NCBI GenBank assembly: GCA_016190625.1
Contig: JACPQF010000027.1
Coordinates: 1 to 34,535 of the forward strand
From: Chloroflexota bacterium
Lineage (GTDB): Bacteria; Chloroflexota; Dehalococcoidia; JACPQF01
Length of the DNA: 34,535 bases
Direction of reading: 5' to 3'
The notes under the pieces are model-generated. The model worked only from the letters and a program-made list of their open reading frames with translations. It had not been told where the DNA came from and made no database searches. A program made the translations under genes and the position numbers. Shown piece by piece: positions 1 through 21,852 of this stretch (the stretch's first letter is position 1; the number at the start of each line of letters is the position of its first letter).

Positions 1-142
1 GTAGACGTGGCAGTGCCAGTTGGCGTTGGCGAAGGCGTGCTGGTAGACGTGGCAGTGCCAGTTGGCGTTGGCGAAGGCGTGCTGGTAGACGTGGCAGTGC
101 CAGTTGGCGTTGGCGAAGGCGTGCTGGTAGACGTGGCAGTGC
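1..142. repeat. 42-bp perfect tandem repeat (3 copies plus partial fourth)
   Basis: Three identical 42-bp units occupy 1-42, 43-84 and 85-126, and a 16-bp start of a fourth ends at 142. On the minus strand each encodes a 14-residue linker unit (STPSPTPTGTATST) in the frame of the giant protein. The array may continue outside the window. It is coding linker DNA, not a CRISPR: there are no spacers. Its perfect identity suggests recent expansion and likely copy-number variation. Confidence 0.9.
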
Positions 143-3100
143 GAGTTGCAGTAGGGGTAGAAGTGGCGGCCGCGGCAACTGTTATGGATATCGCAGCGCT
201 TGTGACCGTTCCGGTGCCATCGTTGACGAGAGCCGTATTGGTGATGGCCGAGCTCGCCGTAACGCCCGAATTCAGCGTAACCCTGAACGTAACAGTAACC
301 GACTGGCTCGCCGAGACCGTGCCACTCCAGCGGATTGGCGAACCGCCAGTGTCGGTAATGACCCCCGAGGTTGCGGTTGCCGAGCTGGACACATAGGTGA
401 CCTGGCTTGGCAGGCTATCGGTCATCAGCGCCGATGCCGTGGCGTCGCCACTATTGGCCATTACCACGGTATAGGTGACCGTGTTGCCGGCCTGTAGATT
501 GCTGCTGGGGCTGGCCGCCTTGGTCGATCCGCTCAGGTTGGGCGCCGTAGCCGCCGTCCCGGCGCTACCGCCCGTGATGGTCCACTGGCTGAAGTGGTCG
601 GTGTAGATGGTGAGCGTGTTGGCGGACTTATCCTGAACCACATTGGTCATGTTCCGCCAGCTACCGGTAGCGCTGTCCCAATAGCTGCCCATGACCTGGT
701 CCTCGGTGATCCCCAAGGCGGTCAACTGCTCCTCGGTGTAGTGAAGGACGATGGAAACGTTCTGGCGGAACCGGCTTATGGTCGCATTGCTGCTGTCGAG
801 CGCAGTCAGGTCGTAGGCCAGGCCAATGGGCCGCGCCGAGCCGTCCATGGCCACGTTGCCCTTCGGTATCGCCCTCACCGTAACCGTGCCGGATACGGCT
901 AGAGAGCCAGCCGGAATATTGATCTCGGTGCCATCACCCAAAGTGATCTGCCTCATGGCCGAGGCGTCGAAGCTGGTCGAGGTGGAGTTGGGCATCGACG
1001 TGCCGCCGCCGGACAGGACCAGGCCCTGTACCGTGGCGCCGCTGCCGACGACCACCGTATACACCTGACTTTGATATAACGTCGAGCTATACTCTCGCAC
1101 GGCCTGGATATGCCAGGTATCGTCGCCGGTCACGGCCAGCGAGTAGGTGCCGTTGGAGCGAATATCGGTGTAGGCCCTCGCACCGCCGTCGGAGAAGGCT
1201 CTCACGAGGCCGTCCGACACTGCCGTTCCCGAGATGGTCACCGTGCCGGAAATCGACGAGCCGGGTCGGCGGAACTGGAGGTTCCTCTGAACCACCGGGT
1301 TGCCGCTGGTGACGGTGGCCGTAACCGGCGCCGGCGGCAAGAATCCCTCATCTGGTGGCATGAAGGTATTGACTTCGTAGGTTCCGTTGGGAACCGTGAT
1401 GGTATAGACCCCGCTGGCGTTGGTATCGGCGCCATACGGTGGACGGGGGTTGCCTGACACATCTCTCACCATGGCCCCTACCCAGGCGCCTCCCACTGCC
1501 GTGCCATCGGGGTCGGTTACGATGCCCCAGATCTTCGAGTTGGCGGATGTCACCGTGAAGTTAAATGTCGTCGTGAAGTTCTCGGTCACGATTATCCGGT
1601 TGTCGGCCGGCATCTCCAGAACGTAGCCGCTGGAGGGGTCGAGCCAGGCGTTCACGAACCATTCGCCCGGCGCCACTCGCATCGAATAGCGACCGGTTTC
1701 CGAATCTACCTGAGTGAAGGACTGCCCCTGTGGCCCCCCGGCAAACACGTTCGCCTGCAAGCCCGAACCAGCGGTCCCCACCAAGCCTCCCGCAATCCAG
1801 GAGCTCGCCTGGGTTGCCGTCAAAATGATCGACGTGCTGCTGGTGACCACCACCCCTGTTCTTCTCGAGATACTATACTCGGAACCCGGCGGCAGTCCGC
1901 CCTCGACGTCGTAGGTGCCGGAAGGTAGACGAATGGTGAAGGTGCCACCGCTGATCGGTCCCCCATAGCCTCGGAAGCTCGGCCCCTGTCCGACGCTAGC
2001 GTTGGCGAAGCCGTAGATGTCGCTTAGCGGCTCGCCATTGGCGTCGACCACCGATCCAGTTAGCTCGCCATCGGCCGAGGAGACCACGATGTTCACGTCC
2101 GAAACGGTTCCCCCATCGGGAACGTCAACCTGAGTCGGCATGCCGCTCTCGACGTAGCGGGAGTCGGGGGACGGCATGGCGTGCACTTCCCACGTCCCCG
2201 ATAACACATAGAGGCTGAATACGCCGTCGGTGATAGAGGTAGTACGCGACCAATCGCCCGGTCCACCCCCAGGACCTTCCATGCCCTTTCGCAGCCAGGC
2301 GCCTATCTCGACGTCGGCAACGCCTCTCCCGCTGGCGTCTGTCACCCAGCCAGTAATCCGCGAGTTCCTACCCTGCAGCGTGAGCGTGCCGAGGTCCTTG
2401 GTCTCGTCCTCGCCGAGAACGATGGGGGCCAGGCGGGGAGCCGAAAGCGTGGTATCCGGCAGCCAGACGTCGAACATGTAGGTTCCGGGCGGCAAAGGAA
2501 CCTGGAAACTACCGTCCGAGGAGACAGGTCCACCGTTGCCAAAGCCGGCGATGCTGTGGAAGCCCACGCCGGCCTGGGATGGCGGTATGCCATCGGGTGT
2601 TAGCAGTCGCCCCCGAATCACCGAGCCAGCGCTGGTAACCGTGAAATTCACCGTTCGAGTGATCGCCTCCGTGGTATCGGCAAATTCGACCCTGACGGGC
2701 GGACGACCGTAGGTCCAGTCGGGCATCTGTTCGGGATGGTCCGGCCCCACCATGATGTTCCAGGCGCCCGGGCTAACGTCCATGACGTATCTGCCCTGGT
2801 CGTCGACTCTACCGTTGGCCCAACCAGCGCCGTCCTCCAGGTTGGCGAACACCATGGCGTCGGTAACCGGCTGGCCGTTGCTGCGAGCCACTCTTCCCGC
2901 AATGTGCTTGGAGGCCTTGGTAAAGATGACCGTCTCGCTGATGGCTTGGCCCGCGGTGATGGTGATCGTCTTCGAGGCTGGAGGCACCAGCCCCGTCGAT
3001 TCCCAAGGCGTGTGCGCGGACAGGACGTAGACACCGGGATTTAGGCCGCCGAAGGTGAACTCCCCGGCTTCGTTGGAGCCGCTGTAACTGGCCACCGCCG

Positions 3101-6100
3101 GATTATCTTTCAATCGCACGTCGACGCCTGCTCGCGGCACGGGCACCATGATCCCACCTGCGTCTCTCACCGTCACGCCAGTCAGGCTGGGCGACGTGAG
3201 AGTGATCGTATAGTAGCGGGTGACGCCGGTTTCGACCGTAACCGGCAAAGGCAGGGACCGGGAGTACCTGCTCATCGGCGGCGCATCGGCCTCAATGAGG
3301 TAGCCGCCGGGGTCGATCCCACCGAAGCTGAAGTTGCCGGACTCATTGGTGTTGCCGTGCGACTGCACGTACCAGTTAGCGTCGTGCAGCATGACATGGG
3401 TCATACTAATTGGCGTACGGCCGTCCGGGGACAGAACCGTGCCGGTGATACTGGCGCCGGTGAGGGGAAGAGTGAAGGGTTGGGTCACGTTCACGGCCAC
3501 GCCGTTGGTTACGGTTACCGGCATCGGCCTCGACTGCGAATATGGCGAATCTCCGCCGTAGGGAGGCATGGCCTCGATGATGTAGAGACCGTCGTCGACC
3601 GAGCCGAAGCGGAACCGGCCGTTCTGGTCGGTCCCCGACCAATTAGCGAACCGGTAGTCCTTGGAGTGCAGGCTAACCCCCGCCCAGGCCACGGGAGTCG
3701 TCTGGTCGGGCGCCGTAACCGTGCCCGTGAGGAAGGGTAAGGTCACGGTGAGCACGACGTTCGTTATGGGCGTGCCCCTGAACAGGACCTCCGTCTCGCG
3801 GGACTCGCCGTAAGCCGATTCGGGACCCGGTCTCGCTCGCAGCAAGTAGGTGTTGGTAACCAGGTTGCCGAACCTGAACATGCCGTCGTCGCCGGCGAAC
3901 GCGAACCTCTGAGTCGTATGGTCACGCGTGTACAAGTCGATATTGGCGTTAGCCACCGCCTCTCCCAGCGGATTGCGCACCACGCCGGCGATGTTGGCAG
4001 CGGTGAGGGTAAGAGTGACGTGGGCAGTGCCGGTGAAGACCCACTGGTAATCGGACGATTCGCCGTAGGGTGAGCCGCTAGGAGGCCAGGCCGTGAGCAT
4101 GTAGAAACTGCCGGTGATGAGACCGGCAAAAGCAAACTGGCCTGCCGTGCTCGTGGTCCGTGAATCCAGGGGTGGTCCCCACTGAGACTGCTTGAGATCG
4201 ACGCGGGCGCCCTGTACAGTGTTGCCCAGGGGGTCAACCACGGCGCCTGTGAGGTTGGGGGTCCGCAACTGCAACGTAATGGGCATCCCTTGATTGCCAA
4301 AGAAGGGAACCTGTGCCGGCTCTGAATCGAAGTAGGGGCCGCTTTGGTCTGCCCTGGCTATCAGCTTGTACATACCGTTGGACAGTCCACCAAATCTGAA
4401 GATTCCCGCGCTGTCCGTCGATGCGCCCTCCAGGAATGTGCCCTGCGGCGTACCGTCCATGAGGTAGAGATCGACCCAATTGTTTGCCTGCGGCGTACCG
4501 TCGGGCTTCGTCACCGTGCCCGTAATCGAAATCGTGGTGAGCGTCAGAGTACCGACGTTAATGGTGATGCCCTGAGTGAATTGGAAGTCCACCGGTTGGG
4601 AATTGCCAAACGAAGCAAACCCGGGTCTGCTGGGAGGGCTGGCGATAACGCGATAGGATGCGCTGGCTATGCGAGGAATTCGAAAAACGCCGCCGTTGTT
4701 CGTGCCATAATTGTCCAGCAGCCGCCAATCGGGACTATTCGAGCCTCCGGCGTTCCAGTAAAGAGTAGCGTTGGTGCCGGTGACGACCCCTCCCCCGGGG
4801 CCGGGCAACGCAACCGTGCCGGTTATCGCCGCCGAACGCAGAGAGAAGTTTGCCTCCTGAGGAGTCCCGGAGGTGTAAGTTACCGTTATCACCTGGGAAT
4901 CGGCCAATCCCGACCCATAGCCGCCCATTGGCGCCTTGGCCTTCATCTGGTAGGTCCCGCTGGGCACACCGCTCAGGGTTAGGCTATAAGATCCGGTGCC
5001 GTCCACGCTGCTATACGTAGCCCGATCTACGCTGTGGTCGCCGTTAAACAGGCTCACGCGAGAGTTGCCCACCGGCGCTCCGGAGTCCGCAGTGACCACG
5101 CCAGAAAAGGCCGGCGCTGCGGCAGGCGTGGTGGGTGTAGCTGTGGGCGTAGCCGTCGCACTGCCAATGGGGGATCCCGTCGCCGTCGGCGAAGGCGTAG
5201 GCGTACTGGTCGCCGTGGGAGTGCTTGTCGCAGTAGGGGTAGCTGTGCCCGCCGCGCCAACGATCGTGAACGTGGCGCTCTGGGCAGAGCCAAGAACTGA
5301 GCCGCCGCCACCGGTGACCTCTGTGATACGGTTATTGACTTGATCGAAAACGAAGGACACAGTCGAAGCGCTCGTAGAAGCCAGGGTCCTGAATCGAATG
5401 ATGCCGACGGTGAACGTTCCCGAGATCGGGGCACCTATGGTGCCGACAGCGTAGTCTACACGACCCAGAGTATTGTTGGCCTGATTCATAAGCTGAAGGT
5501 TCAGCGGAGTGCCAGGATTGACGATGGCGTTCGCTGGATTACCATCGATGTCGACTATCCGGAACAAGTCGGGGTTAAAGTTGACGTGGACCTCCACGCC
5601 ATCCACGGGTTGAGAACCGGCTTGGACCTGAAGGGTTACCGTAAACACCTGGTCGATGGTGAAGGTGCCAGTCAGAGGAAGCATGACCAAGGCTACCGGA
5701 CCGGCCGGCGTTGGCGTCACGGTGGCGGTGGCCGTGGCGGTCGACGTGCCGGTATTCGTAGCAGTGGCGGTGGCCGTACGCGTCGAAGTTGCAGTGGGTG
5801 TCGGGGTTGGCGTCGTCGTCGGCGGTGTGGCGTAAAGGTATACCGGGCTATCGGTAAGCTGGGACGCTTGAGCTAGGCTGATGGAATTACCCAACTTGTC
5901 TTTGGCCGATGCCGCCCACGAGGGTAGGGTGACGGTCACTGTGATATTCCACCTGGTATTGTCGCCCTGTGCCCATTGCCCCTGATTCTGCGCCCACAGC
6001 ACCCCGCGCTGCTGACCATCGGTAGTATACTTGTAGCCCTCCACTACGCACTGATTCCCGGCCGTTTGGCAGACCACGGGAAACTGGCCGGGAGTGACTT

Positions 6101-7333
6101 CCGGGGCAAGACTGCCGGCAAAAGTAGCGTTCTGAAATTCGCCAGCGGCAAACGTATAGGCCCGATAAGAGTCCTTGGGTGTGTAATCCGAGTTTAGCAG
6201 CCCGTAATGGACATCTGTTCCCAGCCCGCTCGCCGCAGACGAATCGGCCAAAGCAAACCAGGTCAGGGCCTGGACGTCGGTATAGATGGCGCGGGCAAAC
6301 AACTTGGGAACGTACCGCGCCTGCCGCTCACCGAAATTGCTATCGTTGACTGAGTTCGTCCAACTCACTTCTGTCACAATTAAGGGTTTACTCACCCCTC
6401 TGCTCGACATCTCCTGACGAATCTCGCCTACTTTGCCAAGGATGTCGTAGCCGTAGTCGCTGTAGTTGGGACTCTGGCTCGAGAAGAAGTGAAGGTTCAC
6501 AAAATCGAAATAGGACGACGCTCCCAAGTCTAGGATGTTCGTAAGGAAGTTGAAGTTGAAGATCGACGGCTCGTGCTCGTGCGCCATGCCACCAAGTACG
6601 ACCTTGGCGGTGGGGTCCGCCAGCCGTAGCGAATCCTGCGCCACTCGAAGCATGTCTGTGTACTGTTGCGGGTAGCTGCCCCAGCAGCCGCCAAGGTCTA
6701 TACCCACCGTGGGGTCCGTGTTGTCAGGCTCGTTGTAGAATTCCCAATGGTGCACGTTGTATGGCGCTCTACTGTAGCGATCGGCCAACGCTCGCACGAA
6801 CTCGCCGAAAGCATCCAAGCCGGTTCTGTTGATGCCGATAGTTTTTGTGATGGGCCCGCAAGAGGTGATCGCAGCCCAGCCGGGATTCTGTCTGATCTCG
6901 ACTATGGGGGCTATCCCCCTAGCGCTTACATCCTGAAACATCTGGTCATAGCCGCTGAAGTTGTACGTGGGCGGATCAGTGCGAACCGGTTCGATATTGG
7001 ACCATCCAACCGATAGGCGCGCCCATTTGGCGCCGGCTTCTTGCATCTTCTGGGCGGTGTCAACGCCGGTGTAACTCATGGGATAGATACCCATTCGAGG
7101 GCTGGCCGTGTCGGCCGGCGCAGTTGCGTTGCAGATCCGGTGGACGTTCGTGTAGCTCTATTCGTGTTGCTTGGCGAAGTGATGGGTGTGGCCGTTGGGC
7201 TCGCTGCGGCCGAAGAGTCAATGGTAACTGCCGGCGGTTTTTGAGACGCGGACAACAATGATCCAGCGGGAAGAACCAGAGACAGTAAGGAAATGGCGAT
7301 CGCGAGGACAAAAGCCTGGCACCGGTGTGACAT
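1..7333 (-). CDS. Giant secreted mosaic protein: GH-A-like barrel, cohesin, ~15 beta-sandwich repeats (frameshifted, runs off window)
   Basis: Not a named gene. Start chosen at ATG 7333 (reading MSHRCQAF) because GAGGTGG lies about 5 nt upstream; a signal peptide follows. After a Thr/Ser linker the frame breaks (see 7123-7132). The next frame stays open from there to position 1, so the 3' end is outside the window. Domains in order: (beta/alpha)8 barrel at about 7100-6230 with WEFYNEPD (candidate acid/base Glu, codon 6731-6729) and TEVSW (candidate nucleophile Glu, codon 6371-6369); accessory beta-sandwich to about 5840; Thr/Pro linker; cohesin-like module about 5710-5250; linker; about 15 tandem units resembling carboxypeptidase-regulatory/CnaB folds, each opening like ITGTV.PDG (about 5100-1080); ZU5-like domain (TEINIPAGSL) about 1000-590; DUF11-like domain about 570-170; linker of 42-bp repeats. 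Likely an extracellular carbohydrate-active or adhesive protein. Expression depends on whether the frameshift is real. Confidence 0.75.
7123..7132 (-). other. Frameshifting 5-bp tandem duplication (GTTGC x2)
   Basis: On the plus strand GTTGC occurs twice in direct succession at 7123-7127 and 7128-7132. Reading from the signal peptide at 7333, the frame leaves the family sequence here and stops at 7078-7076 after TQLRRPTRP. Removing one GTTGC restores the frame as TSTGSATAPADTASPRMG, which aligns with [19 protein letters not shown] in the upstream paralogue. The same segment is 2 nt longer than in the paralogue (38 versus 36 nt). Whether this is a real mutation, a reversible slippage site or a sequencing/assembly error cannot be told from one sequence. 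Confidence 0.8.
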
Positions 7334-7737: not shown

Positions 7738-10700
7738 CTAGCCTGATGGGGCATCGCTCATCGCGATGGCTGGCAGATATATCCTCCATTGCGGCCTCCC
7801 CAAGATGGCAAACCTGGTGAGCTGGTTCCCGGCAGCCGTTAGGATGTTGGCGACGGGTTCCACGGTAGTCGGCAGGGCAGCCCAAGCTAATACCAGGTCA
7901 TCCCAGTAGTAGACCTTCAGGGAAGTCTCCTCCATCCCGACCACGTCAACATCGTCGTAGCGGACCGTGACAGTGAAGTTTGCCGGGAAGCCGGTCACCG
8001 GCGTGCCATCGGCTGTGGTCGCTTGGATGGCGAATGCCCTCCCCAAACTCCGGAACTCCCCGCTCAGGCCGGAGGCGTCGCCCGGCGTAAAGGTGACAGT
8101 GACGGGCTGGCTCACGGCGCCTGGCGGGAAGGTGATGGTGGTAGTGGGAACCCCGGCCGACGTGAGCGTGCCTCCAAAGGAGGGATCTACGACAGCCGTG
8201 ACAACCGGATTGGCAAAGACCGTGGCATTCTGAGCCGAGCCAAGAACGGAGAGGCCGCCACCGGTGACGTCGGTCAGCCGATTGCTGGCGCCGTCGAACA
8301 CAAAGCGGACGTTCGCTCCTGCTTCCGGAAGTGTTCCGGTCCGCTTGAAGAAGACGGTCCCCACGTCAAAACGACCAGTAGGTCGAGGCCCAAGGGTCCC
8401 CACCGCGTAGTCGATGCGACCGGTGGAGTTGTCTACCTGGTTTAGCAATTGGACGTCGAGGGGCGAGCCGGAGCTAACGATTCTCGAAGTGGGATTGCCG
8501 CTGGCGTCGACGACCTGTAAGCGGCCGGGGTCGTATTCGAGATGCGCTTCCACGCCATCGATCGCTTGATCTCCGGCTTCCACCGTCAGAGTGAGGCTGA
8601 ACGGCGCGTCCGTGACCGTGATCTGGCCAGGTTCGAGGATCAAGCTCACGCTTGCTGTCCCGAGTTGGGGCGCCTGGAGATCCACCCCCTCGCCAGCGAT
8701 TGGTCCCAACGGCGCCTGATTTGGTCTGGTGCTCGCCGGCGTAATGATATCCCCAAGCCGCCCGAAATTGCTGGCAAGCAGAGAGAAATCGGAGATGTTG
8801 ATCTGATTCGAGTTATTGAAATCGGCTCGCGCATCCCAGCCGGCCTGGCCGAGCTGCTTGCCAAAAGCAGTGGCAAGGATGGAAAAGTCGGTGATGTTGA
8901 CCATGTTGTTGTCGTCGGCATCTCCTTCGAGGAGGGCGCCAATGGTCACGGTATTCACGCCGCTGGCGATTACCACGTTCTGCTTCTTGCTGGCCAGGGT
9001 GTGCGAGTTCTTCGCTCTGATATCATAGGTGCCCGGCGACATGCCTGTTAAGGTGAAGCCGGCCGAGGCGTCCAGAGTTGGCGTAGCCTCGGCGAGCAAT
9101 GTGGTCGTGCCGGGTGAATAGAACCGAACGTCCAGAGGAATCTGATATGGGAGGCCAGAGCCTACCTGTCGCCCCTGCAGGGAGACCGAGCCTCTTATGA
9201 GTGCGCCAACGACGTTGAAGGTACCGCTTTGAGTGCTGCCCAGCACCGAGCTAGAGGCGTTGGTCACGTTCGTAACGCGGTTGTTGCCCTGATCGGAGAC
9301 GAAGGACACCGTCGAGGAGATCGCAGGGGCCAGAGCCTTTAGACGAATGACGCCGGCGGTGAACGTTCCCGAGGGTTTGACCCCAGAAATCTTGCCGACG
9401 GCGTAGTCTATGCGGCCCAGGGTGTTATCGGCCTGATTCAGAAGCGGAACGTCCAGCGGACTGCCAGGATTGACGATGCTGTTCGCTGGATTACCATTGA
9501 TGTCGACAACCCGGAACAAGTCGGGGTTGAAGTTGACGTGGACCTCCACGCCATCGACGGGTTGAGAACCGGCCTGGACCTCAATTGTGATACTGAACAC
9601 CTGACCGATGGTGAAAGTGCCCGTCAGAGGAAGCATAACCAAGGCTACCGGACCCGCCGGTGTTGGCGTCACGGTGGCTGTGCTGGTCGCGGTGGAGGTC
9701 GCCGTTGCCGTGCCAGTTGGTGACGCGGTCGCTGTTGCCGTGTCCGTAGGCGTGTTGGATGACACTTGGGTTGCCGTACTCGTCGGTGTTGCATTTGGTG
9801 TTGCGTTTAGCGTAGGTGTCGAACTGGGAGTGGCCGTACGAGTTGGGGAGGCTGTGTTGGTCGGCGTCGAGTTATCGACCGTGATCGTAAGTCTCTGATT
9901 GTCAGCCAGGGAGCCGCCTTGGCCCCGGCCTCCCACAACGTAGATGTTGCCATCGCCTGCTCTGGCAGCCCCGAGTAACTCTCTAACTGGCCCCCAGCCT
10001 GCGGGAACGGGTACGGCGCCAAGGCTGTCCCATGTGTCTGCAGCAGTATCGTAGGACTCCACGACCGCGCCCCCCCACACGTCGCCCCCTATGACGTAGA
10101 TGCGCCCGTCGCTTCCAACAGCGGCTGCCGTTCCGCCCCGAGCCGTCGGCATGTCTGCCTTCCTCGTCCACTGATTCGTCGCTGTATTGTACTCTTCCAC
10201 CGTGGCAAGAGCGATCCCATCGATGGTGCGGCCCCCGAAGGCGTAGACACGTCCGTTGAGCGCAGCGGCGGCACTTAACCCCTTACGCGCCGTGGGAAGG
10301 CTTGCTCTGGCCTCCCAGCTATTGCTCGCCGGGTTGTAGGCCTCAACTGCACTTAAGGATATAGCCGATCCGCCGAATCCGCCAATCGCGTACACCTTGC
10401 CGTCGGACGCACCGGCCAGTCCAAGGCCCTCACGCCCGGTAGGCATGCTGGCACGGGTCACCCATGTGTTATTGAGGGGATCGTATTCTTCGGTCGCACC
10501 TGTATATCGGCCGCCGTCCCAGCCTCCCACAGCGTAGATCTTGCCGTTTACGGCCCCGGCCGCCGCCAACGAACGCCGCGCAGTCGGCATCGACGAGACG
10601 GCAGCCCAGTTATTGAAGGTCGGATCGTACGCGTACATTTGGTTCGTCCAGACCACGGTTTCGTTGTAGCCCCCAATCACGTAGACTTTGCCGTTTGGCC

Positions 10701-13700
10701 CGGCAGCAACTCCCATTTGGTCCCTTGCCTGGGGAATAGGGGCCATCGAGGACCAGATCAACGTCCTTTGACCAGCGGGTGTCTGAGTTGGCGTTGGCGT
10801 GGCAGTTTGCGTAGATGTAGGAGTGGCCGTTGGCGTGCCGGTCGCCGTAGATGTGCGAGTGGCAGAGGCTGTAGCAGTGCCGGTGGCTGTGGCCGTCGCG
10901 GTCGGAGTGGCGGTCGGCGTGCTGGTCGCCGTAGAGGTGCTCGTGGGCGTCGGCGTCGGCGTTGCCGCACCGGCCACCACGCCATTGCTCGTCCCCGCCT
11001 CGCTCCACAGTCCGCCATCGTTGCGGGCCATGACCGATACGTAGTAGGTCTGCCCGCGCAGGAGATTGAGCCCGGAGCGAACCACATTCGTTACAGCCGA
11101 GTTGGTCCAGTTCACCACATCGGTTCCACCGGCGCTGGTGCCTATGGCGTAACGAAAGAGGTTGATGGCCGATTCTGGGTCAGTGGCCGACCAATTTGCG
11201 GAGATGGTGCTGGTAACGCCAATGGCCGAAGCGACTACGGTGGGCGCCGACGGCGGGGTGGTGTCGGCGATGTAACCGGCGTAGTCCACGGTGAAAGTCG
11301 GGCCGGAGTAGGGAGCGATCTCGACCCCATCTGCCCCCCGCGCCGACGAGATGGTGAGAGAATAGGCGCCCCGAGGGACAAGGGTGGTGAAGTCGTAGGT
11401 GGTGCGATAGTTGGTGGGGGAGACCCATTGGCCATCGCGAAAGTCCTCTAGCAGGGCAGGCAATTCGGACGCCTCAACCGTTGCGAAATAGTTCCAGCCA
11501 AAGGCCTTGCCTCCGATGGCGTAAATCCAGCCGTTCGACTCGGCTAAACCCAGAAAGAACCGCGCCGTGGGCATGCGTGTGTGGCCGCGCCATGTATCGG
11601 TCACGGGGTTGTACTCCTCCACTGTCGCGAGGGGTGCGTCGGCATCACCGCCCCCGATAGCGTAGATCCGGCCGTTGGCCGCCACTGCGCTTAGTTTGCC
11701 GCGCGCTGCGGGCATAGGCGCGCGGGCGCGCCAGATGTCGGTCGCCGGGTCGTACTCCTCCACCACGGAAAGGTAGCCGGAGGAGGGGGACGTCCCCCCG
11801 ATGGCGTAGATGCGGCCATTTGCCTCCGCTACCCCGAGGCCGGTGCGCGCCGTTGGCATGGGGGCGCGGTCCCGCCATGTGTCGGTTGCCGGGTTGTACT
11901 CCTCCAACGTCGCGAGGGGTCCGTCGGCATCACCGCCCCCGATGGCGTATATCCGGCCGTTGGCCGCCGCTACCCCCAGAAAAGCGCGCGCTCTAGTCAT
12001 GGGTGACCGAGCGCTCCACACGTCCCGCGCTGGGTCGTATTCCTCTACCGTCGCGAAGGGGATATGGCGGCCATCCCAGCCGCCGATAGCGTAGAATCGG
12101 CCGTTGGCTGCTGCCATGCCCATGTAAGCCCGTGCCGTGGGCATGGGTGCGCGAGCGCCCCAGGTGTTCGTCATGCGATCGTACTCCTCGACAGTGGCGA
12201 AGGCTGTGTCGAAAGCCTCCCCCCCTATGGCGTAGATGCGGCTGCTAGCCACCGCCACCCCGAGGCCATCGCGCGCCGTGGACATGGGGGCGCGGGTCGC
12301 CCAGACAAGGTTGGATGCCCCTTCGGAGTCAAAACCGGGAGCACTCTGCGTGTCCATTCCGCGGCTGAACTCCACATCGAAGTTTACGGTCTGGATCCCC
12401 ACCGGACTTGGTGGCGTAAGAGTGATGGCCCGAACGTAAGCAGGGGCATCAACGGAGGGAGAGGTCAGCACCGGTGTGGGGGACACCCTCCCTTTGGTGT
12501 AGTCGTCGTCGTAGTCGAAGATACGCCCGGAGATTGTCGCCGTATTCGTGATCCCCCACCAGTTGCGCTGGGCGATGACATACTGTCCGGCGGCGTTATC
12601 GTTGTAGAGGTCGTACGAGCCCGAGTTGAGGTCGAAGTTGTTGCCCGAAGTCGTCGCCGGGATGCCGCCGCTCGTGTAAAGAGACCTTCCCCCATTGCCG
12701 GTGAAGGTGTTGCTGACCACCGTAGCCGCCCCTACTCGCAGCCCGTCGCCGCTGGAGTTGGCGATCAGGTTCCCCTGTACCAGACCGGTGGACACCACCA
12801 GGCCGGTGGCATTGCCCACCAAACGGTTCCCGGTCACGGTGATTGTCCCGCTGGTCTGGATGCCCACCCCGGAGGAACTCTCCACGTCGTTCCCCCGGAC
12901 GGTGGACCCGCTGCCGGCAATAATGCCCCCGTTACGCACTGTGTTGGACAGGACGGACCCCGTTCCACTCATGCCGATGCTCCCGCCCGTGACGGCGCTC
13001 CCGCTCACCACGCCACTGCCGAGGCTGACGCCGCCGCTGACTGTGGCGCTAACCACCGTACCGCTGCCCAGGCTCACCGTGCCGCCAGCCGTGGCGTTTT
13101 CCACCGTGCCGCTGCCACTTATGGTGATGCCCCCGCTGCCGGTTGTTTGCCGCACCGCGCCGGCGCTGCCCAGAGAAATGTTGCCGCCGACTGTGCTAGA
13201 AAGCACGTCCGATTGGTTGCCCAAGGTCAGGTTCCCACTCCTGGTAACGCTGCGTCGCACGTGCCCCGTCCCGTTAGCAGTGACGGTGCCCGTAATGGTG
13301 CTGTCCAGCAGCCAGAAACCGGTGCTGCCAAGGGTGGCATTCACACCGCCGCCGGACACGGTCAGATGGGACAGGTGCGGTGTCGAGCTGTTGCTGACCA
13401 CGCCAGCGGTCGCCCCCTGCACCTGCACGTAGCGCAGAATGCTCCCCGACTGATAGTTTCCATCGCCGTCCGCTACCGCGTCGGTGCTCGAATCGTCAAA
13501 GTAGATGCGGTTCCAGGTTCCGGCGCCATAGGGCATGAAGACGATGGGCTGGGAGGCGGTTCCGTCGGCGATGAGCGTCCCGCCCACGTTTAGTGCGTAG
13601 TTGCCATTGAACTTCACCACCGTTCCCGCTTGAATGGTCAGGGTCACACCGGGCGCGATGCCGAGGTTGTTCCCAGCGACTACGTAGGTCTTGTCGCTCG

Positions 13701-16700
13701 TCCATACCGTATCCACGCCGATGGTCCCACCCACATTCTCGACGCTGCTGCGAGTGGTCACCGTGAAGGCCACGGTCGTCGTGTACGAGTCACCGTTGGC
13801 GGAGAGGGCCAGAGTAAAGGGGATGGCATGGTTGTAGCCGGCCCCGGCGGCAATGGTGGTCGAGAAGGGCGTGCTGTTGGCGGCGGTCTGCCCGGATACG
13901 ATGTTGCCGAAGCTGGCGGTACCGGTGACCACCGTAACGTAGGGGTCCGTCGTGGTCAGCGTGCCGGTGACATTTGACGCGTCAGCCCAATCATCGTAAA
14001 GGGAGACGGCAAGAGACGCTCCGGCGCCAAAATCGGGCCGCCCGTTTGGAGTGCCGTTGGCGGCGTAGCCGGAATAGGCAAGTATAGGATGGGGCGGCTG
14101 AACTGCCCTGGCGGCGTTGATACGTCCCGCCCCCATCTGTCCCTCGTAGCCGGGGTTGAGCGAGTCGACTGGATCGGCCGTATGGATGATCTGCGAGCGA
14201 ATCATAGCCGGCGTCCAGTCGGGATGCTGGGATACTAGCAATCCTGCCAGCCCGGCGACAAAAGCCGAGGCCATCGAGGTGCCCGATGTGGTTACGTAAT
14301 CACCGCCCATGGCCGTGGTCAGGATAGACGCACCGGGAGCCGAGACGTCGACCCACGGCCCGTAATTGTTGAAGACGGTGCGGGTGTCGCTAATGGTCGT
14401 GCCGGCGACGGCGATAACACCGTCGTAGGCGGCGGGATAGAACGGCGCGCCAATACCGTCGTTGCCCACACCGCTCACCACCACCACGTTCTGAGAGACG
14501 GCGTTGGCGACGGCCTCGCGCAGCGCCGTGGAGTCGGCATAGCCGCCAAGGGAGAGGTTGATGACTCTAGCGCCTTTGGCGGTGGCGTAATTGACTCCCG
14601 CGGCGATATCGGAGTAGTTGGCGAGTCCGGAGGCCTGCATGACCTTAACGGGCATGATGCGGCAGTTCCCGCAGACGCCGGCGATGCCGGTAGCATTGCT
14701 GGATTTGGCGGCGGCGATGCCGGCGACGAGGGTGCCATGGCCATTGTCGTCGGAGGGGTCGTTGCTGGCAGAGATGAAGTTCCAACCCCGGATGTCGTCG
14801 ATGAAGCCATCGTTGTCGTCGTCCACTCCGTTTGCGGAGACATCACCGGGGTTTGTCCATAGGTTGGGAATCAGGTCGGGGTGACCCAGATCTACGCCGG
14901 AGTCGACAAAGGCAATGATTACGCCTGACGTACCGGTAACCACGGACCAGGCTCCCTCGACCTGAATTTTGCTGAGCGCCCACTGCTCTTGGTAGCGCGG
15001 GTCGCGGGTCGAGACCGTCGGGCTCGGCGTAGCCGTATTCGTAGCCGTCGGCGTTCTCGTAGCGGTCGCCGTAGCCGTGCTCGTGGGGCTTGGCGTGGCC
15101 GTTCCCGTTGCTGTCGGACTCGCCGTGGAGGTGCTGGTGGGCGTCCGCGTGGGAGTGGGCGGGTCTGACTCGAAGGCGTAGACCTTCCCATCCCCCGAGC
15201 CGACGTACATCATCCCGTTCGCCACCGCCGGCGAGGAGTTGCTCCCGCTACCGGTGGAGTAGCTCCACCGCAGGGCCCCGTTGCTGGCGTCGAGGGCCGA
15301 GAGCTTCCCGCCCCACGAACTCATGTATACTACTCCGTTGGCCACCGCCGGCGAGGAGAAGTAGGACTCCACACCGGTGGGGGAACTCCACCGGATCTCT
15401 CCCGTGGAAGCGTCCAGAGCGTAGACTGACGAGGAGGCCACGCTTTTGCCCACGTAGACCATGCCGTTGGCCACCGCCGGCGACGAGTCGACCGAGTCCG
15501 TGAACGGGCGCGTCCAACTGGCCGCTCCCGTGGCCGCGACCAGAGCGTGCAGCTTCCCGTTCACGGTGCCAGAGCCCACGTATATCACGCCGTTTGCCAC
15601 GGCCGGGGACGATGCGACCGTACTTCCCGTCGCGTACGCCCACTTCAAGGCTCCGGTTAGGGCGTCGAGGGCGTAGACCTTCCCATCGCCGTGAGACCCT
15701 ATGTAAACCACCCCGTCGGCTACCGCCGGCGAGGAGAAGTAGACCTGCCCTGTCGTGAAGATCCACTTGAGTTGCCCGGTTGAGGCGTCGAGGGCGTACA
15801 CCTTGCCATCCCAGCCGCCGAAATAAACCGTGCTGCCGCTCACCGCAGGGGAAGAGTCGACGATCTGCGCGCCGGCGGCGTAGCTCCATTTGAGGGCGCC
15901 GCTGGCCGCGTCCAGAGAGTAGAGCTTGCCGTCGTTGGCGCCAACGTAGACCACCCCGCCGACCACGGCCGGAGATGACTGGACGGCACCCCCTGTCGAG
16001 TAGGTCCACCTCAAGGCACCCGTGGCCGCATCCAGCGCGTAGACCTTGCCGTCCTCCGAGCCAGCGTAGACTACCCCGCCCACTACAGCGGGAGACGACT
16101 GGACCGAGCCGCCCGTGGAGTAGCTCCACTTAAGGCGCAGGGGAGGCGTGAGCTGCGTTTCGGCCGCGCTGTAGCCGGCGTGAGCCAGGTTGTAGCGGAA
16201 CATAGGCCAGTCGGAGGCGGACGGGGTAGCGGTGGGCGTGGAGGTAAACGTGGGCGTAGGCGTAGGCGTAGGCGTCGCCGTGGCCGTAGCTGTCGCCGTC
16301 GGCGCCGCTGCGTAGACGTATACCGGGCTATCGGTAAGCTGGGACGCTTGGGCAAGGCTGATGGAATTACCCAACTTGTCTCTGGCCGATGCCACCCACG
16401 AGGGTAGGGTGACGGTCACTGTGATATTCCACCTGGAATTGTCTCCCTGAGCCCATTGCCCCTGATTCTGCGCCCATAGCACCCCGCGCTGCTGACCGTC
16501 GGTGGTGTACTTGTAGCCCTCCACTACACACTGATTCCCGGCCGTTTGGCAGACCACGGGAAACTGGCCGGCAGTGACTTCCGAGGCAAGACTGCCGACA
16601 AAAGTAGCGGTCTGAAACTCACCAGCGGCAAACGTATAGGCCCGATAAGAATCCTTCGGTGTGTAATCCGAGTTTAGCAGCCCGTAATGGACATCTGTTC

Positions 16701-17910
16701 CCAGCCCGGTAGCCGCCGACGAATCCGCCAAAGCAAACCAGGTCAGGGCCTGGACGTCGGTATAGATGGCGCGGGCAAACAACTTGGGAACGTACCGCGC
16801 CTGCCGTTCGCCGAAATCGGCATCGTTGACCGAGTACGTCCAGCTCGATTCCGTCAAGATTACGGGTTTGCTCACCCCCTTGTTCAACATTTCCTGGCGA
16901 ATCTCGCCCACTTTGCCAAGAACGTCGTAGCCGTAGGCGCCATAGTTGGGACCCTGACTCGAGAAAAAGTGAACGTTCGCAAAATCGAAATAGGGCGACG
17001 CTCCCAAGTCGAGGATGTTCGTGAGGAAGTTGTAGTTGAAGATCGACGGTTGTTGCTCGTGCGCCAGGCCGCCAAGTACGACTTTGGCCGTGCTATCCGC
17101 CGCCTGCAGCGAATCGTGCGCTTTGTGGAGCATGTCTGTATACTGTTGCGGGTAGCTGCCCCAGCAGCCGCCAAGGTCTATACCCACCGTGGGGTCCGTG
17201 TTGTCAGGCTCGTTGTAGAATTCCCAATAGTGCACGTTGTACGGCGCTCTACTGTAGCGATCGGCCAACGACCCCACGAACTCGCCGAAAGCATCCAATC
17301 CGGTCTTGTTGACACTGACAGTCTTGGTTATGGGTCCGCAAGAGGTGATCGCCGCCCAGCCAGGATTCTGCCTGATCTCGACTATGGGGGCTATCCCCCT
17401 GGCGCTCAAATCCTGAAACATCTGGTCATAGCTGCCGAAGTTATATGTAGGCGGATTGGTGCGAACTGGTTCGATAGTGGACCATCCTACCGAAAGGCGC
17501 GTCCATTTGGCGCCGGCATCTTGCATCTTCTGAGCGGTGACGACGCCAGAGTAACCCATGGGATCGATGCCCATTCGAGGGCCGGCCATGGTCGTCCCTG
17601 CTAGCGCTGCAAACCCGGTGGACGTTCGTGTAGCTGCGCTCGTGCTGTTTGGCGTGATGGTGGGTGTAGCCGTTGGGCTCGCTGCGCCCTCGGCGAATTG
17701 GCCAACTTTCTCGATGAACGCTATTGGGGCTTGGTTAGTGGCCTCACCTAGGCGATATCGATCCAGAATCGGAGCGAGCTTGAGACCTGAAGGATCAATG
17801 GTGACTGCCGGCGGTTGTTGGGACGCGGACAACAGTGATCCACCGGGAAGAATCAGAGATAACAAGAAAATGGTGATCGCGAGAGCAAAGAACTTGAACC
17901 GGTTTGGCAC
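7738..17910 (-). CDS. Giant secreted mosaic protein: GH-A-like barrel, PQQ propeller, subtilase, beta-helix, two Kelch propellers, cohesin-dockerin-cohesin
   Basis: Not a named gene. The frame is open from an ATG at 18045; residues here are numbered from that ATG. The likely start is GTG 17910 (residue 46), with AAGGCGGTG upstream and the signal peptide following at once; upstream DNA is conserved in the paralogue but in another frame, so it is leader. Domains: signal peptide 46-78; linker; barrel 155-450 with NEPD Glu279 and TESSW Glu399; accessory sandwich to 575; eight PQQ-type blades 610-960 (SSPAV..G.VY motifs); S8 protease 1013-1320 with Asp1048, His1103, Ser1257 (SGTSMAS); beta-sandwich; parallel beta-helix 1434-1856; Ig-like domain split by a six-motif Kelch propeller 1904-2192; fibronectin III 2262-2354; second Kelch propeller 2425-2721; cohesin 2796-2944; CnaB-like 2946-3037; dockerin 3040-3100; cohesin 3127-3284; ZU5-like 3286-3415; tail WRIYLPAIA. 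Four Thr/Pro linkers separate blocks. Expected to be extracellular. Confidence 0.88.
8195..8665 (-). other. Cohesin-like module 2 of the giant protein
   Basis: About 157 residues starting [14 protein letters not shown], with [35 protein letters not shown] and [11 protein letters not shown], the same landmarks as module 1 but clearly diverged. It lies directly after the dockerin and before the ZU5-like domain. Confidence 0.75.
8750..8928 (-). other. Dockerin-like module within the giant protein
   Basis: Two calcium-loop repeats are visible: [12 protein letters not shown] followed by FSILATAFG, and [12 protein letters not shown] followed by FSLLASNFG, about 22 residues apart. Asp/Asn at loop positions 1, 3, 9 and 12 and the helix after each loop fit type I dockerins (duplicated F-hand). 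It is internal, between a CnaB-like sandwich and the second cohesin, whereas dockerins are usually terminal. Confidence 0.85.
9215..9660 (-). other. Cohesin-like module 1 of the giant protein
   Basis: About 149 residues beginning [12 protein letters not shown], with the cohesin pattern [25 protein letters not shown]-like turn, then GRIDYAVG and a final Thr/Ser-rich strand. It follows a Thr/Pro linker and is near-identical over long stretches to the module at about 5250-5710 in the downstream gene, so the two were copied from one another. Confidence 0.75.
9665..9880 (-). repeat. Low-complexity Thr/Pro/Ala/Ser linker DNA
   Basis: This encodes a linker of about 70 residues ([20 protein letters not shown] end). 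Similar linker DNA occurs at about 16222-16318, 15010-15165 and 10775-10980 in the same gene and at 5710-5830, 5100-5250 and 1-180 in the downstream gene. Every long linker falls on a domain boundary. The block here and that at 5710-5830 also share the cohesin that follows. Confidence 0.8.
9885..10772 (-). repeat. Kelch repeat DNA, six units (propeller 2)
   Basis: A second set of six Kelch blades ([48 protein letters not shown]) flanked by Thr/Pro linkers on both sides. It differs in sequence from propeller 1, so it is a separate module and not a recent copy. Confidence 0.8.
11480..12310 (-). repeat. Kelch repeat DNA, six units of about 145 bp (propeller 1)
   Basis: Six direct repeats each encode a Kelch blade with the landmarks [14 protein letters not shown] and APMPTAR. 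Copies are similar enough at DNA level to recombine. The block sits inside an Ig-like domain: [16 protein letters not shown] lies before it and [21 protein letters not shown] after it. Confidence 0.8.
15170..16140 (-). repeat. PQQ-type propeller repeat DNA, eight units of about 120 bp
   Basis: Eight direct repeats encode blades reading [32 protein letters not shown]. Eight blades fit a closed PQQ-like beta-propeller. Nothing in the blades shows PQQ binding; the fold is commonly structural. Confidence 0.85.
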
Positions 17911-18147: not shown

Positions 18148-18176
18148 ATACTAGCATGTTTTGGTCGTTTGGTCAA
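18148..18176 (-). promoter_or_regulatory. Sigma70-type promoter of the upstream giant gene
   Basis: TTGACC (18176-18171) and TAGTAT (18153-18148) on the minus strand with a 17-bp spacer, matching the paralogous promoter. The -35 box overlaps the TGA stop of the PdxA-like remnant. Predicted transcript start is near 18140, with a leader of about 230 nt. Confidence 0.7.
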
Positions 18177-18369: not shown

Positions 18370-18768
18370 CTAGCGCTTCGTGTACTGAGGAGCTTTCCGC
18401 GCCCGCTTCAAGCCGTACTTCTTTCTCTCCTTGACCCGCGGGTCACGGGTGAGCAGGCCGGCCCTCTTCAGGGCCGGGCGCAGCGTCTCGTCGGTTCGCA
18501 ACAGCGCCCGGGCGATCCCGTGTCGAATGGCGCCCGCTTGCCCGCTGTAGCCACCCCCTGCCACCTTGACCACCGCATTGAATCTGCCCAAGCTGCCTGT
18601 GAGCCGCAGCGGTGTCAGAATAATGGTCTGGAGGCCCTGCCCGGGGAAAGCCTCTTCCAGCGCTTTACCGTTCACGACCACCGCGCCCGTTCCGGTCATG
18701 AGTCTGACTCGGGCGATGGCCGTCTTGCGCTTACCAGTTCCGTAAAAGTACTCTTGGTTGGTTACCAA
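18370..18768 (-). CDS. rpsI: 30S ribosomal protein S9
   Basis: S9 sits in the 30S head; its C-terminal tail reaches the P-site tRNA. The sequence shows the N-terminal [15 protein letters not shown] motif, the [18 protein letters not shown] core and a basic tail ending APQYTKR, which matches the universal (K)YSKR end. The start is TTG 18768: AGGAGG lies 6 nt upstream, and this gives 132 residues, the family length. A longer frame to 18873 exists but overlaps rplM. The rplM stop lies 1 nt before this start, so the pair is translationally linked. It is the last gene of the cluster, followed by a terminator. Confidence 0.95.
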
Positions 18769-18769
18769 A

Positions 18770-19267
18770 TCACGCCTCCTCTCTCGGAGTTGTCGCCCGC
18801 GGCTCGCTCGCCGGGGACGCCGGTTGAGCCGCTCGTTTTTCCCCTTTCGCCTGAGCGCGCACCTGGGATTCATGTGGGTGGGTCCGACCCGAATAGACCT
18901 TGAGTTTCCTGAACATTGCCTCGCCTAATCGGTTATGAGGCAGCATTCCCCTCACTGCGTGCTCGATTACGCGAGTTGGACGGGTAGCGAGCATCTTCTC
19001 GAGCCGCACCACTTTCAGTCCTCCGTGGTACTGCGAATGCCGGTAGTAGGCCTTCTGGCTTACTTTTCGGCCCGTGAGGCGAACGCTGGCGGCGTTGACT
19101 ACGATCACAAAGTCGCCCACATCCAGGTGGGGAGTGTACTGGGGCTTGTGCTTCCCCTTCAGTAGCTGAGCAACCTGTGAGGCCAATCGCCCTAACGTCT
19201 GTCCACCAGCATCCAGCACATGCCACTTCCGTTCGACGTCAGCGGCGCTTGCAGAATAGGTCTTCAT
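18770..19267 (-). CDS. rplM: 50S ribosomal protein L13
   Basis: L13 is an early assembly protein of the 50S subunit binding 23S rRNA. It shows [15 protein letters not shown] near the N-terminus, [33 protein letters not shown] and [12 protein letters not shown], all L13 landmarks. Its 165 residues exceed the usual 142-150 because of an Ala/Pro/Glu-rich C-terminal extension ([20 protein letters not shown]). ATG 19267 overlaps the truA stop as ATGA; GAGGAG lies about 10 nt upstream. It forms the usual pair with rpsI. Confidence 0.96.
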
Positions 19268-20058
19268 AATTCAGTTTCTCCTCGTCGCTCCTGCAGATGG
19301 TCTTCTGTTACGTAAATATCAGCAGGATAGTCAACCTTCACAAACCATAGCCCATGGGGAGGCGCCGCCGGTCCAGCCGCTTTGCGATCACGTCCCGCCA
19401 GAACCTGAATGAACTCCGGCACGCTGAGCTTGCCCGTGCCCACCCAGAGGAGGGTGCCCACCATATTCCTCACCTGATGCGCCACAAAGGCATCGGCCGA
19501 GATGTCGAAGGTGATTAGCTCACCTTCCCGCTCCAACCTCTCCTCTAAAACTTCTCGCCTGGTGCTTCGCCCCTTCGCCTCCCGACCGGCAAACGCGGCG
19601 AAATCGTGCTGGCCCACCAAAAAGCCGGCCGCCGTTTTCATCGAGGCCAGGTCCAACCGGGCAGGCACGTGAAAGGCATACCGGCGCCAGAACGGAGACG
19701 GGCTCCGCCGGTTCAGCAGGTAATACCGGTAATGCCTCCTGGTAGCGCTGCGCCTGGCATCGAAATCCGGTCGCACCTCCGCAGCCGTCCTGACGACGAT
19801 GTCATCCGGCAGATAGAAGTTTAGCGCTCCGACGAACTGGCTGACCGGGTATACGCTCGTGGTCGAGAAGCTCACCACCTGCCCCTTGGCATGAACACCC
19901 GTATCTGTCCGTCCGGCTGCCTTGACCCTCAAGGTTTCGCCGGTGAGTTTGTAAAGGGCTGTCTCTAGTTCCCCCTGAATGGTAGTCCGGTCCGGCTGAA
20001 GCTGAAAGCCAAAATAGGCGCTGCCGTCGTACTCCATCTCTAGCTTTAGCTTCCGCAT
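19264..20058 (-). CDS. truA: tRNA pseudouridine(38-40) synthase
   Basis: Converts uridines 38-40 of the tRNA anticodon stem-loop to pseudouridine. The catalytic Asp lies in AAGRTDTGVHAKGQV; LEYDG-like start (LEMEYDGSAYFGFQLQ) and the C-terminal FVAHQVRNMVG motif are present. The start chosen is ATG 20058 (MRKLKLEMEYDG), giving 264 residues; a TTG at 20088 in the same frame would add ten non-conserved residues. No strong Shine-Dalgarno is visible for either. It lies between rplQ and rplM, a common position, and its stop overlaps the rplM start. Confidence 0.94.
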   Translation of the reverse strand: MRKLKLEMEYDGSAYFGFQLQPDRTTIQGELETALYKLTGETLRVKAAGRTDTGVHAKGQVVSFSTTSVYPVSQFVGALNFYLPDDIVVRTAAEVRPDFDARRSATRRHYRYYLLNRRSPSPFWRRYAFHVPARLDLASMKTAAGFLVGQHDFAAFAGREAKGRSTRREVLEERLEREGELITFDISADAFVAHQVRNMVGTLLWVGTGKLSVPEFIQVLAGRDRKAAGPAAPPHGLWFVKVDYPADIYVTEDHLQERRGETEL

Positions 20059-20117
20059 GCTTTGATGTTTTCCAGCCCGACAAGTCAATGGCTTGCCGGC
20101 GAGGGCCGCGCCGGAAG

Positions 20118-20192
20118 TGGCTCAGGAAAAGGCACCGGTCGCGTTCACGGTAGGGGCGAACGGCCGTTCGCCCCTACGCGTCTCTGAGCCAC
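20118..20192. repeat. Palindromic REP/MITE-like element between truA and rplQ
   Basis: A perfect 28-bp palindrome (20150-20177; arms GTAGGGGCGAACGG and its complement) is nested in an outer inverted repeat GTGGCTCAG (20118-20126) / CTGAGCCAC (20184-20192). The 20089-20252 gap holds nothing else recognisable. The GTAGGGGCGAA arm recurs at about 30084 and 30517, so this is a dispersed family. Confidence 0.75.
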
Positions 20193-20252
20193 GGCCGCGG
20201 ACTTATCCTTCAACTGTAACCCTGCCGATGAACCATGGCCATCACCGCAAGC

Positions 20253-20606
20253 CTAGTCCACCAGCTCGATCACTGCCACCGGCGCTGCGTCGCCTAGCCT
20301 TGTGCCAATGCTGACCACTCGCGTGTAACCACCTTTGCGGTCGGCATATCGTTTAGCCAGCACATCAAAGAGCTTCTCTACCACCTGGGGGTCGAACATG
20401 TAAGACAGCGCCTGCCTTCGGGCGTGGAGCGAGCCGTTCTTCCCCAAGGTGATCATCTTCTCTACCAGCGCCTGCACCTCCTTGGCCTTTGCCTCGGTCG
20501 TCTTTACCTTCTCGTGGCGGAGAACGTCGGTGACTAGATTTCGATACATCGATAGCCGATGGCTGGTGGGACGTCCCAGCTTCCGTCCCGCTACTGCGTG
20601 CCTCAT
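20253..20606 (-). CDS. rplQ: 50S ribosomal protein L17
   Basis: L17 binds 23S rRNA near the polypeptide exit. It opens [17 protein letters not shown], the L17 signature, followed by [23 protein letters not shown] and a C-terminal GGYTRVV.IG.R.GDAAP.AVIELVD. ATG 20606 is chosen because MRH is the conserved start; a TTG 18 nt upstream in frame adds PPTHD-type residues absent from the family. It gives 117 residues, the usual size. It lies 38 nt downstream of rpoA, its standard partner. Confidence 0.95.
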
Positions 20607-20644
20607 ATCATGAGTGGGGGGCAATCTGGCGGCAACCCACCGGA

Positions 20645-21745
20645 TTACTCCTGTTCCTCCTCTTCCTCATCATAGTCGTACTCGGACTCGAACTCCTCGT
20701 CCTCATCCTCGTCTTCGTGGGCAACGAGAGCGCTGCCGATCTCGCCTCCGCCCGGAACTTCACCAGTCGCGCTCATGAAGCCCCGCGAGACGAGACGCTC
20801 GCGAAGCTCCTCTAGCGACTTCCGACCGAAATTGCGCACTGACAAAAGATCTTCCTCGCTCATCTCCAGAACCTGGCCGACCTTGGAGATGCCGCTTCGC
20901 TTGAGGCAATTGTACGCCCTCACCGAAAGGTCCAGGTCCTCGATTGGAACGTCATAAACCTTCGAAGGAATAGCGGTAGGAACCAGTGCCTGTCTTTCCA
21001 CCCGGGGCGTGGCCTTACCAAGCTCCCCGACCATGGCGAAATGGTTAACAAGGATCCGGGCGCTTTCGCTTAGGGCCTCGACCGGCGTGATCGTCCCATC
21101 AGTCCAGATCTCGATGTTCAATCGCTCGAAGGTTGTCACCTGACCGATTCGCATCTTCTCGACGGAGTAGCTAGCCTTTCTTATTGGGGTAAAGATCGCG
21201 TCGACCGGTATCATGCCTATCGGCTGCCCGTCTCGCTGGCTAGCGGGAATGTAGCTCTTGCCCCGCTCGACGCTAAGCTCAACGGTTAACGAGGCCTCAG
21301 GCGAATCGAGCGTCGCCAAATGGAGCTCCGGGTTTACGACCTCGAAGTCCGCCGGGGCCTTGATATCTGCCGCCGTCACGCTGCCCTCGCCGCGCGCCTC
21401 GATGCTCAGCTTCCCCGGCCGGTCGGAAAAAGAGCGGATGCGTAGTTGTTTCACGTTTAGGAGGAACTCAGTCGTGTCCTCCTTGACGTGAGGAATGCTG
21501 GAGAACTCGTGCTGCACTTCCTCTATCTTGACGGAGGTCACAGCCGCGCCACTAAGCGAGCTTAGCAGCACCCGCCGCAGAGCGTTGCCCAGCGTCACGC
21601 CGAAACCGCTTTCCAACGGGCCAATGGAGAAACGGCCATACCCCTCCGCGCTAACTGTCGATTCTATCTTCGGTATGAGTGTTTCCACAGAAAGGTCGCC
21701 TCCTCGGAGGCGAGTGCTCACTGCATCGTCAAATGCAGTTGCCAT
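20645..21745 (-). CDS. rpoA: DNA-directed RNA polymerase subunit alpha
   Basis: Alpha forms the dimer that nucleates RNA polymerase assembly and contacts upstream promoter DNA and activators. The N-terminal domain shows [20 protein letters not shown] and SVEK.R.GQ.T...[15 protein letters not shown]; the C-terminal domain shows [36 protein letters not shown] 21745 has GGAGGG just upstream and is preferred to GTG 21757. At 366 residues it is longer than usual because of an acidic tail (about 22 residues, mostly Asp/Glu, after [11 protein letters not shown]). Confidence 0.97.
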
Positions 21746-21852
21746 TGCTCCCTCCACAATTACTCTCAGTTGTCACCATCTGGCAGGATACTTGGGACGA
21801 TGCGGCGGCCTGCCTGGATAAATCTCTGGGACAGACGCCGCGGACGCTGCTT

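Follow-up and report, generated by a model that had tools for sequence, protein, structure and literature searches.

Can a single bacterial chain hold enzymes that cut polysaccharide and protein together with modules that dock? This question is raised by gene A, which occupies positions 7738 to 17910 on the minus strand of contig JACPQF010000027.1 (positions 1 to 34,535 of the contig, here called the window; assembly GCA_016190625.1, Chloroflexota bacterium, class Dehalococcoidia; source genome 65% complete). A first-pass annotation, made from the letters alone, described it as one intact frame joining a glycosidase-like barrel, several propellers, a protease, a beta-helix, cohesins and a dockerin, possibly a machine for binding, cutting and anchoring polymers. 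We hold with moderate confidence that the product of gene A is real, a mosaic of about 3,390 amino acids in a single chain, exported by Sec and working as an extracellular matrix-processing enzyme. Every module in it is of a known kind, and the combination was met in no other genome examined. The modules are given below in the order in which they follow one another from the N-terminus to the C-terminus, with the upstream element before them and the neighbouring gene B after them. Residue numbers count from TTG 18045; subtracting 45 gives the numbering from the likely start.

18148..18176 (-), promoter-like TTGACC-N17-TAGTAT, read from the alignment of A and B in an upstream region homologous between them
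7738..17910 (-), complete coding sequence of gene A, 3,390 amino acids from GTG 17910; frame open upstream to TTG 18045
17824..17910 (-), signal peptide (29 residues), by inspection
16312..17595 (-), GH39/PslG-type (beta/alpha)8 barrel with C-terminal beta domain, residues 151-578
16210..16311 (-), Thr/Pro linker 1
15151..16209 (-), eight-bladed PQQ/BamB-type beta-propeller, residues 613-965
15010..15150 (-), Thr/Pro linker 2, immediately 5' of the mature protease
14098..15009 (-), thermitase-like peptidase S8, residues 1013-1316
13741..14097 (-), stretch C-terminal to S8, residues 1317-1435, beta-sandwich presumed by eye
12451..13740 (-), right-handed parallel beta-helix, residues 1436-1865, assigned through relatives
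11476..12315 (-), six-bladed Kelch propeller 1, residues 1911-2190
10966..11253 (-), fibronectin III (FN3), residues about 2265-2360
10768..10920 (-), Thr/Pro linker 3
9871..10767 (-), six-bladed Kelch propeller 2, residues 2427-2725
9655..9870 (-), Thr/Pro linker 4, ending in a part homologous to the linker ahead of the gene B cohesin (85% identity at C150:5688-5751)
9202..9654 (-), cohesin-fold module 1, residues 2798-2948
8926..9201 (-), X module (transthyretin/CarboxypepD_reg-like), residues 2949-3040
8746..8925 (-), type I dockerin with duplicated Ca-loop motif, residues 3041-3100
8212..8694 (-), cohesin-fold module 2, residues 3118-3278
7741..8220 (-), ZU5/GAIN-like tail with a C-terminal stretch of 15 residues, residues 3276-3435
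3..7333 (-), gene B, tandem paralogue directly downstream of A, truncated at the window edge

One frame or a chimera of the assembly

The intact frame seen at first pass is confirmed. Gene A is free of stops from 18045 to 7738 (3,435 codons counted from TTG 18045), and the plus-strand translation of the same interval has many stops and is non-coding. Chance is nowhere near enough to explain an open frame this long (3,400 codons) with so many profile matches. The start is most likely GTG 17910, giving 3,390 amino acids, because gene B has ATG at the homologous base and a purine-rich stretch lies just 5' in both genes. Upstream of it, frame-breaking indels between A and B indicate that the stretch is non-coding. 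The first-pass annotation gave no strand, and its residue numbers did not fit a start at 17910, since they count from TTG 18045. Export by Sec is suggested by a signal peptide judged by eye.

Modules of different genes might have been joined by the assembler at repetitive Thr/Pro linkers. Four joins of gene A do lie in low-complexity linkers, and such linkers have disturbed this assembly: the contig ends in one of them in gene B, whose frame leaves the window edge within a 42-base tandem repeat, and this end (positions 1-130) shares 46 exact bases of the repeat with the end of contig C118 (L085). At this true repeat, however, the assembler broke rather than joined. The linkers of gene A are codon-scrambled, and none has more than about 20 exact bases in common with the loci compared. 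Searched against the whole genome, their DNA matched itself and the homologous linker of gene B, with only short or diverged matches besides. The longest exact repeat that involves A in the sequences compared has 88 bases, falls in the barrel and is shared with B. Moreover, some joins have no such linker at all, namely S8–beta-helix–Kelch 1–FN3 and cohesin–X–dockerin–cohesin–ZU5. The GC content of third codon positions (GC3) is normal across gene A, at 0.69-0.84 in its modules (excluding linkers and the signal region) and 0.66-0.82 in other measured genes of the genome. Between A and B, the ratio of nonsynonymous to synonymous substitution (dN/dS) is about 0.22 in the barrel and 0.31 in the cohesin; for S8 against its paralogue on contig C136 it is 0.14. 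These values point to purifying selection on all three. Because the linkers are unique, the composition is normal and the paralogue pairs are under purifying selection, we regard a chimera as very improbable.

Two catalytic modules in one chain

The barrel was compared with the Protein Data Bank (PDB) through a profile of four paralogues of the genome. It matched PslG (E=1.2e-14) and GH39 xylosidases (1.9e-8). Two glutamates, E279 (in NEPD; codon 17209-17211) and E399 (in TESS; codon 16849-16851), are invariant in the four paralogues and align with NEP and TEW of PslG, as expected of an acid/base Glu on strand 4 and a nucleophile Glu on strand 7. Thus, the earlier reading of a GH-A-like barrel with both catalytic Glu stands. 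The Pfam GH39 score is 15.7 bits in A, below the cutoff of 26, and 26.3 bits in the paralogue gene C. PslG of Pseudomonas aeruginosa (GH39; PDB 4zn2, 5bx9) is homologous over about 300 residues. It is a stand-alone enzyme encoded in a polysaccharide synthesis cluster (PMC9075953), and it disperses biofilm through cutting of the exopolysaccharide matrix (PMC7237758). Unlike PslG, the barrel of gene A heads a 3,390-residue chain 3' of a ribosomal-protein operon.

The second enzyme matches peptidase S8 (PF00082) at E=8e-51, with 173.5 bits against a cutoff of 21.8. Alignment to thermitase and AK.1 protease (S8; PDB 1thm, 1dbi) places the triad at D1048, H1103 and S1257, the residues named at first pass, and the oxyanion residue at N1195; the fold is also the same. 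Unlike these two proteases, the S8 domain of gene A is embedded in mid-chain, and Pfam scans recognised no prodomain before it, a linker standing in its place. Its paralogue on contig C136, 71% identical, carries a Fervidolysin_NPro-like prodomain and has in common with gene A the region after S8, up to about residue 1387. Judged from their sequences, the barrel is an intact GH39/PslG-type glycosidase and the S8 domain an intact thermitase-like protease.

The position of this protease allows another reading, in which S8, once exported, cleaves the Thr/Pro linkers in its own chain or in a neighbouring one and so frees the glycosidase, the propellers and the cassette as separate products. S8 does sit between long exposed linkers and lacks the prodomain of its C136 paralogue, and stand-alone barrel, Kelch and propeller modules are present in the same genome. 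However, no cleavage site can be read from the sequence, and Thr/Pro linkers are frequently glycosylated and protease-resistant. We therefore think such a self-trimming polyprotein possible but unlikely. It might also be supposed that the chain serves mainly as a fibre for structure or adhesion, an adhesin or surface stalk whose catalytic domains are vestigial or act as lectins. Most of the length of gene A is non-catalytic (propellers, beta-helix, FN3 and beta-sandwiches), and paralogue B, although truncated, contains 13 Pfam CarboxypepD_reg stretches. Against this, all catalytic residues of both enzymes are retained and both modules are under purifying selection, which makes a mere stalk improbable.

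How common is such a chain? A scan of contigs with the barrel gave no confirmed relative. In a search of genomes, the barrel was found in 155 of 400 sampled Chloroflexota genomes (E<=1e-15) and, at E<=1e-25, in 6 of 393 from the same class, its own included. Among the matches listed, barrel frames outside this genome are shorter than 1,300 amino acids, with one exception of 1,819, a weak match. The same architecture was found in no other genome examined, within the matches listed for the sampled part of the phylum, where the nearest belong to the same class; this agrees with the first-pass view that the combination was an unfamiliar one. A search of the literature available returned no description of the architecture, or of the docking cassette in Chloroflexota. 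By its RpoA, nearest to those of Chloroflexi and Dehalococcoidia MAGs (best 65%), the genome appears to fall in the class Dehalococcoidia. If the single-chain reading is right, gene A is a natural chain with polysaccharide- and protein-cutting enzymes on a docking cassette, and it occurs in Dehalococcoidia, a class better known for small genomes.

The docking cassette and its possible role

The dockerin and the two cohesins of the first-pass annotation belong to a four-part cohesin–X–dockerin–cohesin cassette. For the dockerin, Dockerin_1 (PF00404) scores 23.4-25.6 bits against a cutoff of 22.9, and 21.6 when scanned inside the 485-residue cassette. The X module gives a weak CarboxypepD_reg match (15.2 bits), which is stronger in relatives. 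The cohesins were recognised through homology and fold. In the A4 family, nine of the ten members match Pfam Cohesin at the E-value limit of 0.1 used, the best at 2.1e-17. An AlphaFold2 (AF2) model of the cassette (predicted local distance difference test score, pLDDT, 79; predicted template modelling score, pTM, 0.57) has as its best PDB matches by Foldseek structures of cohesin-X-dockerin and of cohesins. A PDB profile search with the cohesins alone returned only chance matches.

The closest structural match of the model is the Coh9–X–DocII trimodule of CipA from Clostridium thermocellum (PDB 3kcp, 4fl4), which has the same order of cohesin, X and dockerin. Unlike in CipA, a second cohesin follows the dockerin in gene A, and the cassette is carried by enzymes and not by a scaffoldin. 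Nor did this genome, 65% complete, yield a set of enzymes with dockerins; a Pfam scan detected the dockerin of gene A only. Searched with the C-terminus of A itself, cohesin-like modules appeared in A and B only; a Pfam Cohesin scan of the genome found none, not even these, and so has low sensitivity here. A cellulosome, with scaffoldin cohesins and many dockerin enzymes, therefore does not fit the one dockerin and the few cohesins found. Since the one dockerin detected belongs to A, and cohesins were detected in A and B, any pairing is probably A–A or A–B. With a genome of this completeness in mind, pairing inside either protein or between the two seems likelier than the recruitment of many enzymes.

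The cassette is not confined to this genome. It terminates other secreted Chloroflexota proteins in genomes G081, G268, G305, G312 and G400. For example, S8 and PPC modules end in cohesin-X-dockerin-cohesin in G400 (L161), as do M23 with lectin-like repeats in G081 (L149) and a C39-like peptidase in G268 (L151), and Kelch propellers with C11 end in X-dockerin-cohesin in G312 (L160). As far as these four loci were read, they have open frames of 1,112-1,922 amino acids, no GH39 barrel and no two catalytic classes. The single-chain reading of gene A, if right, opens the way to testing how Chloroflexota use a recurrent cohesin–X–dockerin–cohesin cassette on secreted peptidases.

For an extracellular matrix-processing enzyme, the parts of gene A would act as follows. 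By analogy with PslG (PMC7237758), the barrel would cut an exopolysaccharide, and the S8 protease would cut proteins, either those of the matrix or those of other cells. The propellers and the beta-helix may be spacers or polymer binders. Less certainly, the cassette could join A with further copies of A, or with B, in small assemblies or fibres, and would not recruit many enzymes. The proposal of a binding, cutting and anchoring machine is plausible: the catalytic residues for cutting are in place, and binding and anchoring are conjectural. A more novel reading is a closed system, in which the products of the two adjacent tandem genes, with one dockerin and three cohesins between them, would assemble into an extracellular fibre, either homotypic or A–B. 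We put this forward tentatively and consider it rather unlikely. If it were true, each subunit of the fibre would carry a glycosidase, and A also a protease, so that a self-linking enzyme fibre would stand in place of an enzyme-recruiting scaffold; the Chloroflexota relatives with the cassette would follow the same design with other peptidases.

Several points weigh against the matrix-processing enzyme and its docking. The cohesins of A are below the Pfam threshold, module 2 scoring 15.9 bits against 24.1 (PF00963) and module 1 giving no match. The cassette model, at its pTM of 0.57, does not settle whether dockerin and cohesin are in contact. Other dockerins may be missing from a genome of this completeness, and an S8 protease without a prodomain may fold poorly or depend on other modules. 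Finally, two complete catalytic centres, the module order and purifying selection on three modules can be read from the sequence, and the activity, substrate, localization and complex of gene A are predictions from it.

The tail, the other modules and the neighbouring genes

The ZU5-like domain proposed at first pass was recovered by structure prediction. An AF2 model of the tail (pLDDT 91) has ankyrin ZU5 (template modelling score, TM, 0.60) and BAI3 GAIN (TM 0.54) as its top PDB matches. A 23-member Chloroflexota tail family gave weak matches, with the GPCR proteolysis site (GPS) motif in six members and ZU5 in four, and its profile matched ADGRF1 GAIN at 2.8e-4. Across this family the motif H-[LFT]-[ST] is nearly invariant, as in known self-cleaving domains. 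Tail domains on contigs C25, C55 and C118 read HLT, HTT and HFS here. The tail of gene A lacks the H-x-S/T cleavage motif and reads NQLT, with Gln Q3408 at the position of the family His. Because the nearly invariant His is replaced, it is probably not self-cleaving. Bacterial ZU5 domains with predicted autoproteolysis and homology to GPS were described in polymorphic toxins in 2012 (PMC3482391). The fold and the motif region are shared with them, but there the domain is N-terminal to RHS repeats, whereas in gene A it forms the C-terminus of an enzyme chain and has no motif His. The domain type is thus already known, and what is new is the Gln in A and the position of the domain at the C-terminus of enzyme chains. 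The finding, if right, extends the ZU5/GAIN superfamily by a bacterial branch whose cleavage motif is directly assayable. In the same genome, a protein on contig C50 (L083 5164-8295, plus strand), SpvB/RHS-like by eye, has a ZU5-like domain near its N-terminus, the arrangement described for polymorphic toxins (PMC3482391). A putative short motif of the type [RK]-h-[YF]-L-P-h-x-x-[RK] stands at the C-terminus of A and of many secreted Chloroflexota proteins at L007, L077, L081, L084-L087, L133, L137, L140, L149 and L151; it is possibly a final strand or a sorting signal.

Every module named at first pass was recovered. The eight-bladed propeller matches PF13360 (PQQ_2) at 8e-51, and its eight blades were counted as eight SPAV repeats. 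It is of the BamB type. The PQQ-type propeller of the first pass gives no evidence of a PQQ enzyme: TIGR03075 gave 110 bits against a cutoff of 480, and a PQQ-dependent dehydrogenase was rejected in favour of a bare propeller. The two Kelch propellers match Kelch_1 at E=1e-102, and FN3 just passes its cutoff (25.1 bits against 25, E=2e-5). The beta-helix has no direct Pfam match (PF13229) in A and is supported by alignable relatives of the same class, L236 and L239, which match Beta_helix at 8e-22 and 4e-20. Nesting of Kelch 1 inside an Ig-like domain was also considered and rejected, as the joined flanks gave no Pfam domain and a relative spanning the join matched via an FN3.

Gene B consists of a signal peptide, a barrel 86% identical to that of A, a cohesin (73%), a CarboxypepD_reg array, a ZU5/GAIN domain with DHFS and a DUF11-like part. 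Its frame is broken relative to A by a one-base difference between the signal peptide and the barrel, either a natural mutation or a sequencing error. The 2,102-residue open frame of C118 may continue gene B. A and B share the barrel, the linker end and cohesin 1; between these flanks, about 2,200 residues including the protease are present in A only. Either an insertion in A or a loss in B would account for this, and the data favour neither. Long CarboxypepD_reg/SpaA-like arrays followed by ZU5/GAIN with DHFS are common to gene B, C81 (L084) and C118 (L085). Gene B and C81 have 81% identity across 1,721 residues, but the array lies behind a barrel and a cohesin in B and has its own signal peptide in C81. 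This contrast is direct evidence of module shuffling.

A further relative, gene C (L007 6825-12938, plus strand; 2,038 amino acids), has a GH39 barrel, a sub-threshold BNR-like propeller and a DUF11-like end. A C25 peptidase, suspected by eye in a large region of this paralogue (contig C40), was dropped for want of a Pfam or PDB match. An Rfam scan of the window gave no match. A and B lie directly downstream of, and on the same strand as, the ribosomal-protein operon (window 18370-34212), which runs S9, L13, TruA, RpoA, S4, MAP, Adk, SecY and on to L2, as named from translations by eye. Elsewhere in the genome, on contig C156 (L079 6235-7752, minus strand) and possibly at L076, a Kelch propeller stands behind a type IV pilin N-terminal methylation motif (Pfam N_methyl); the L079 product may be labelled a putative pilin-tip-like propeller.

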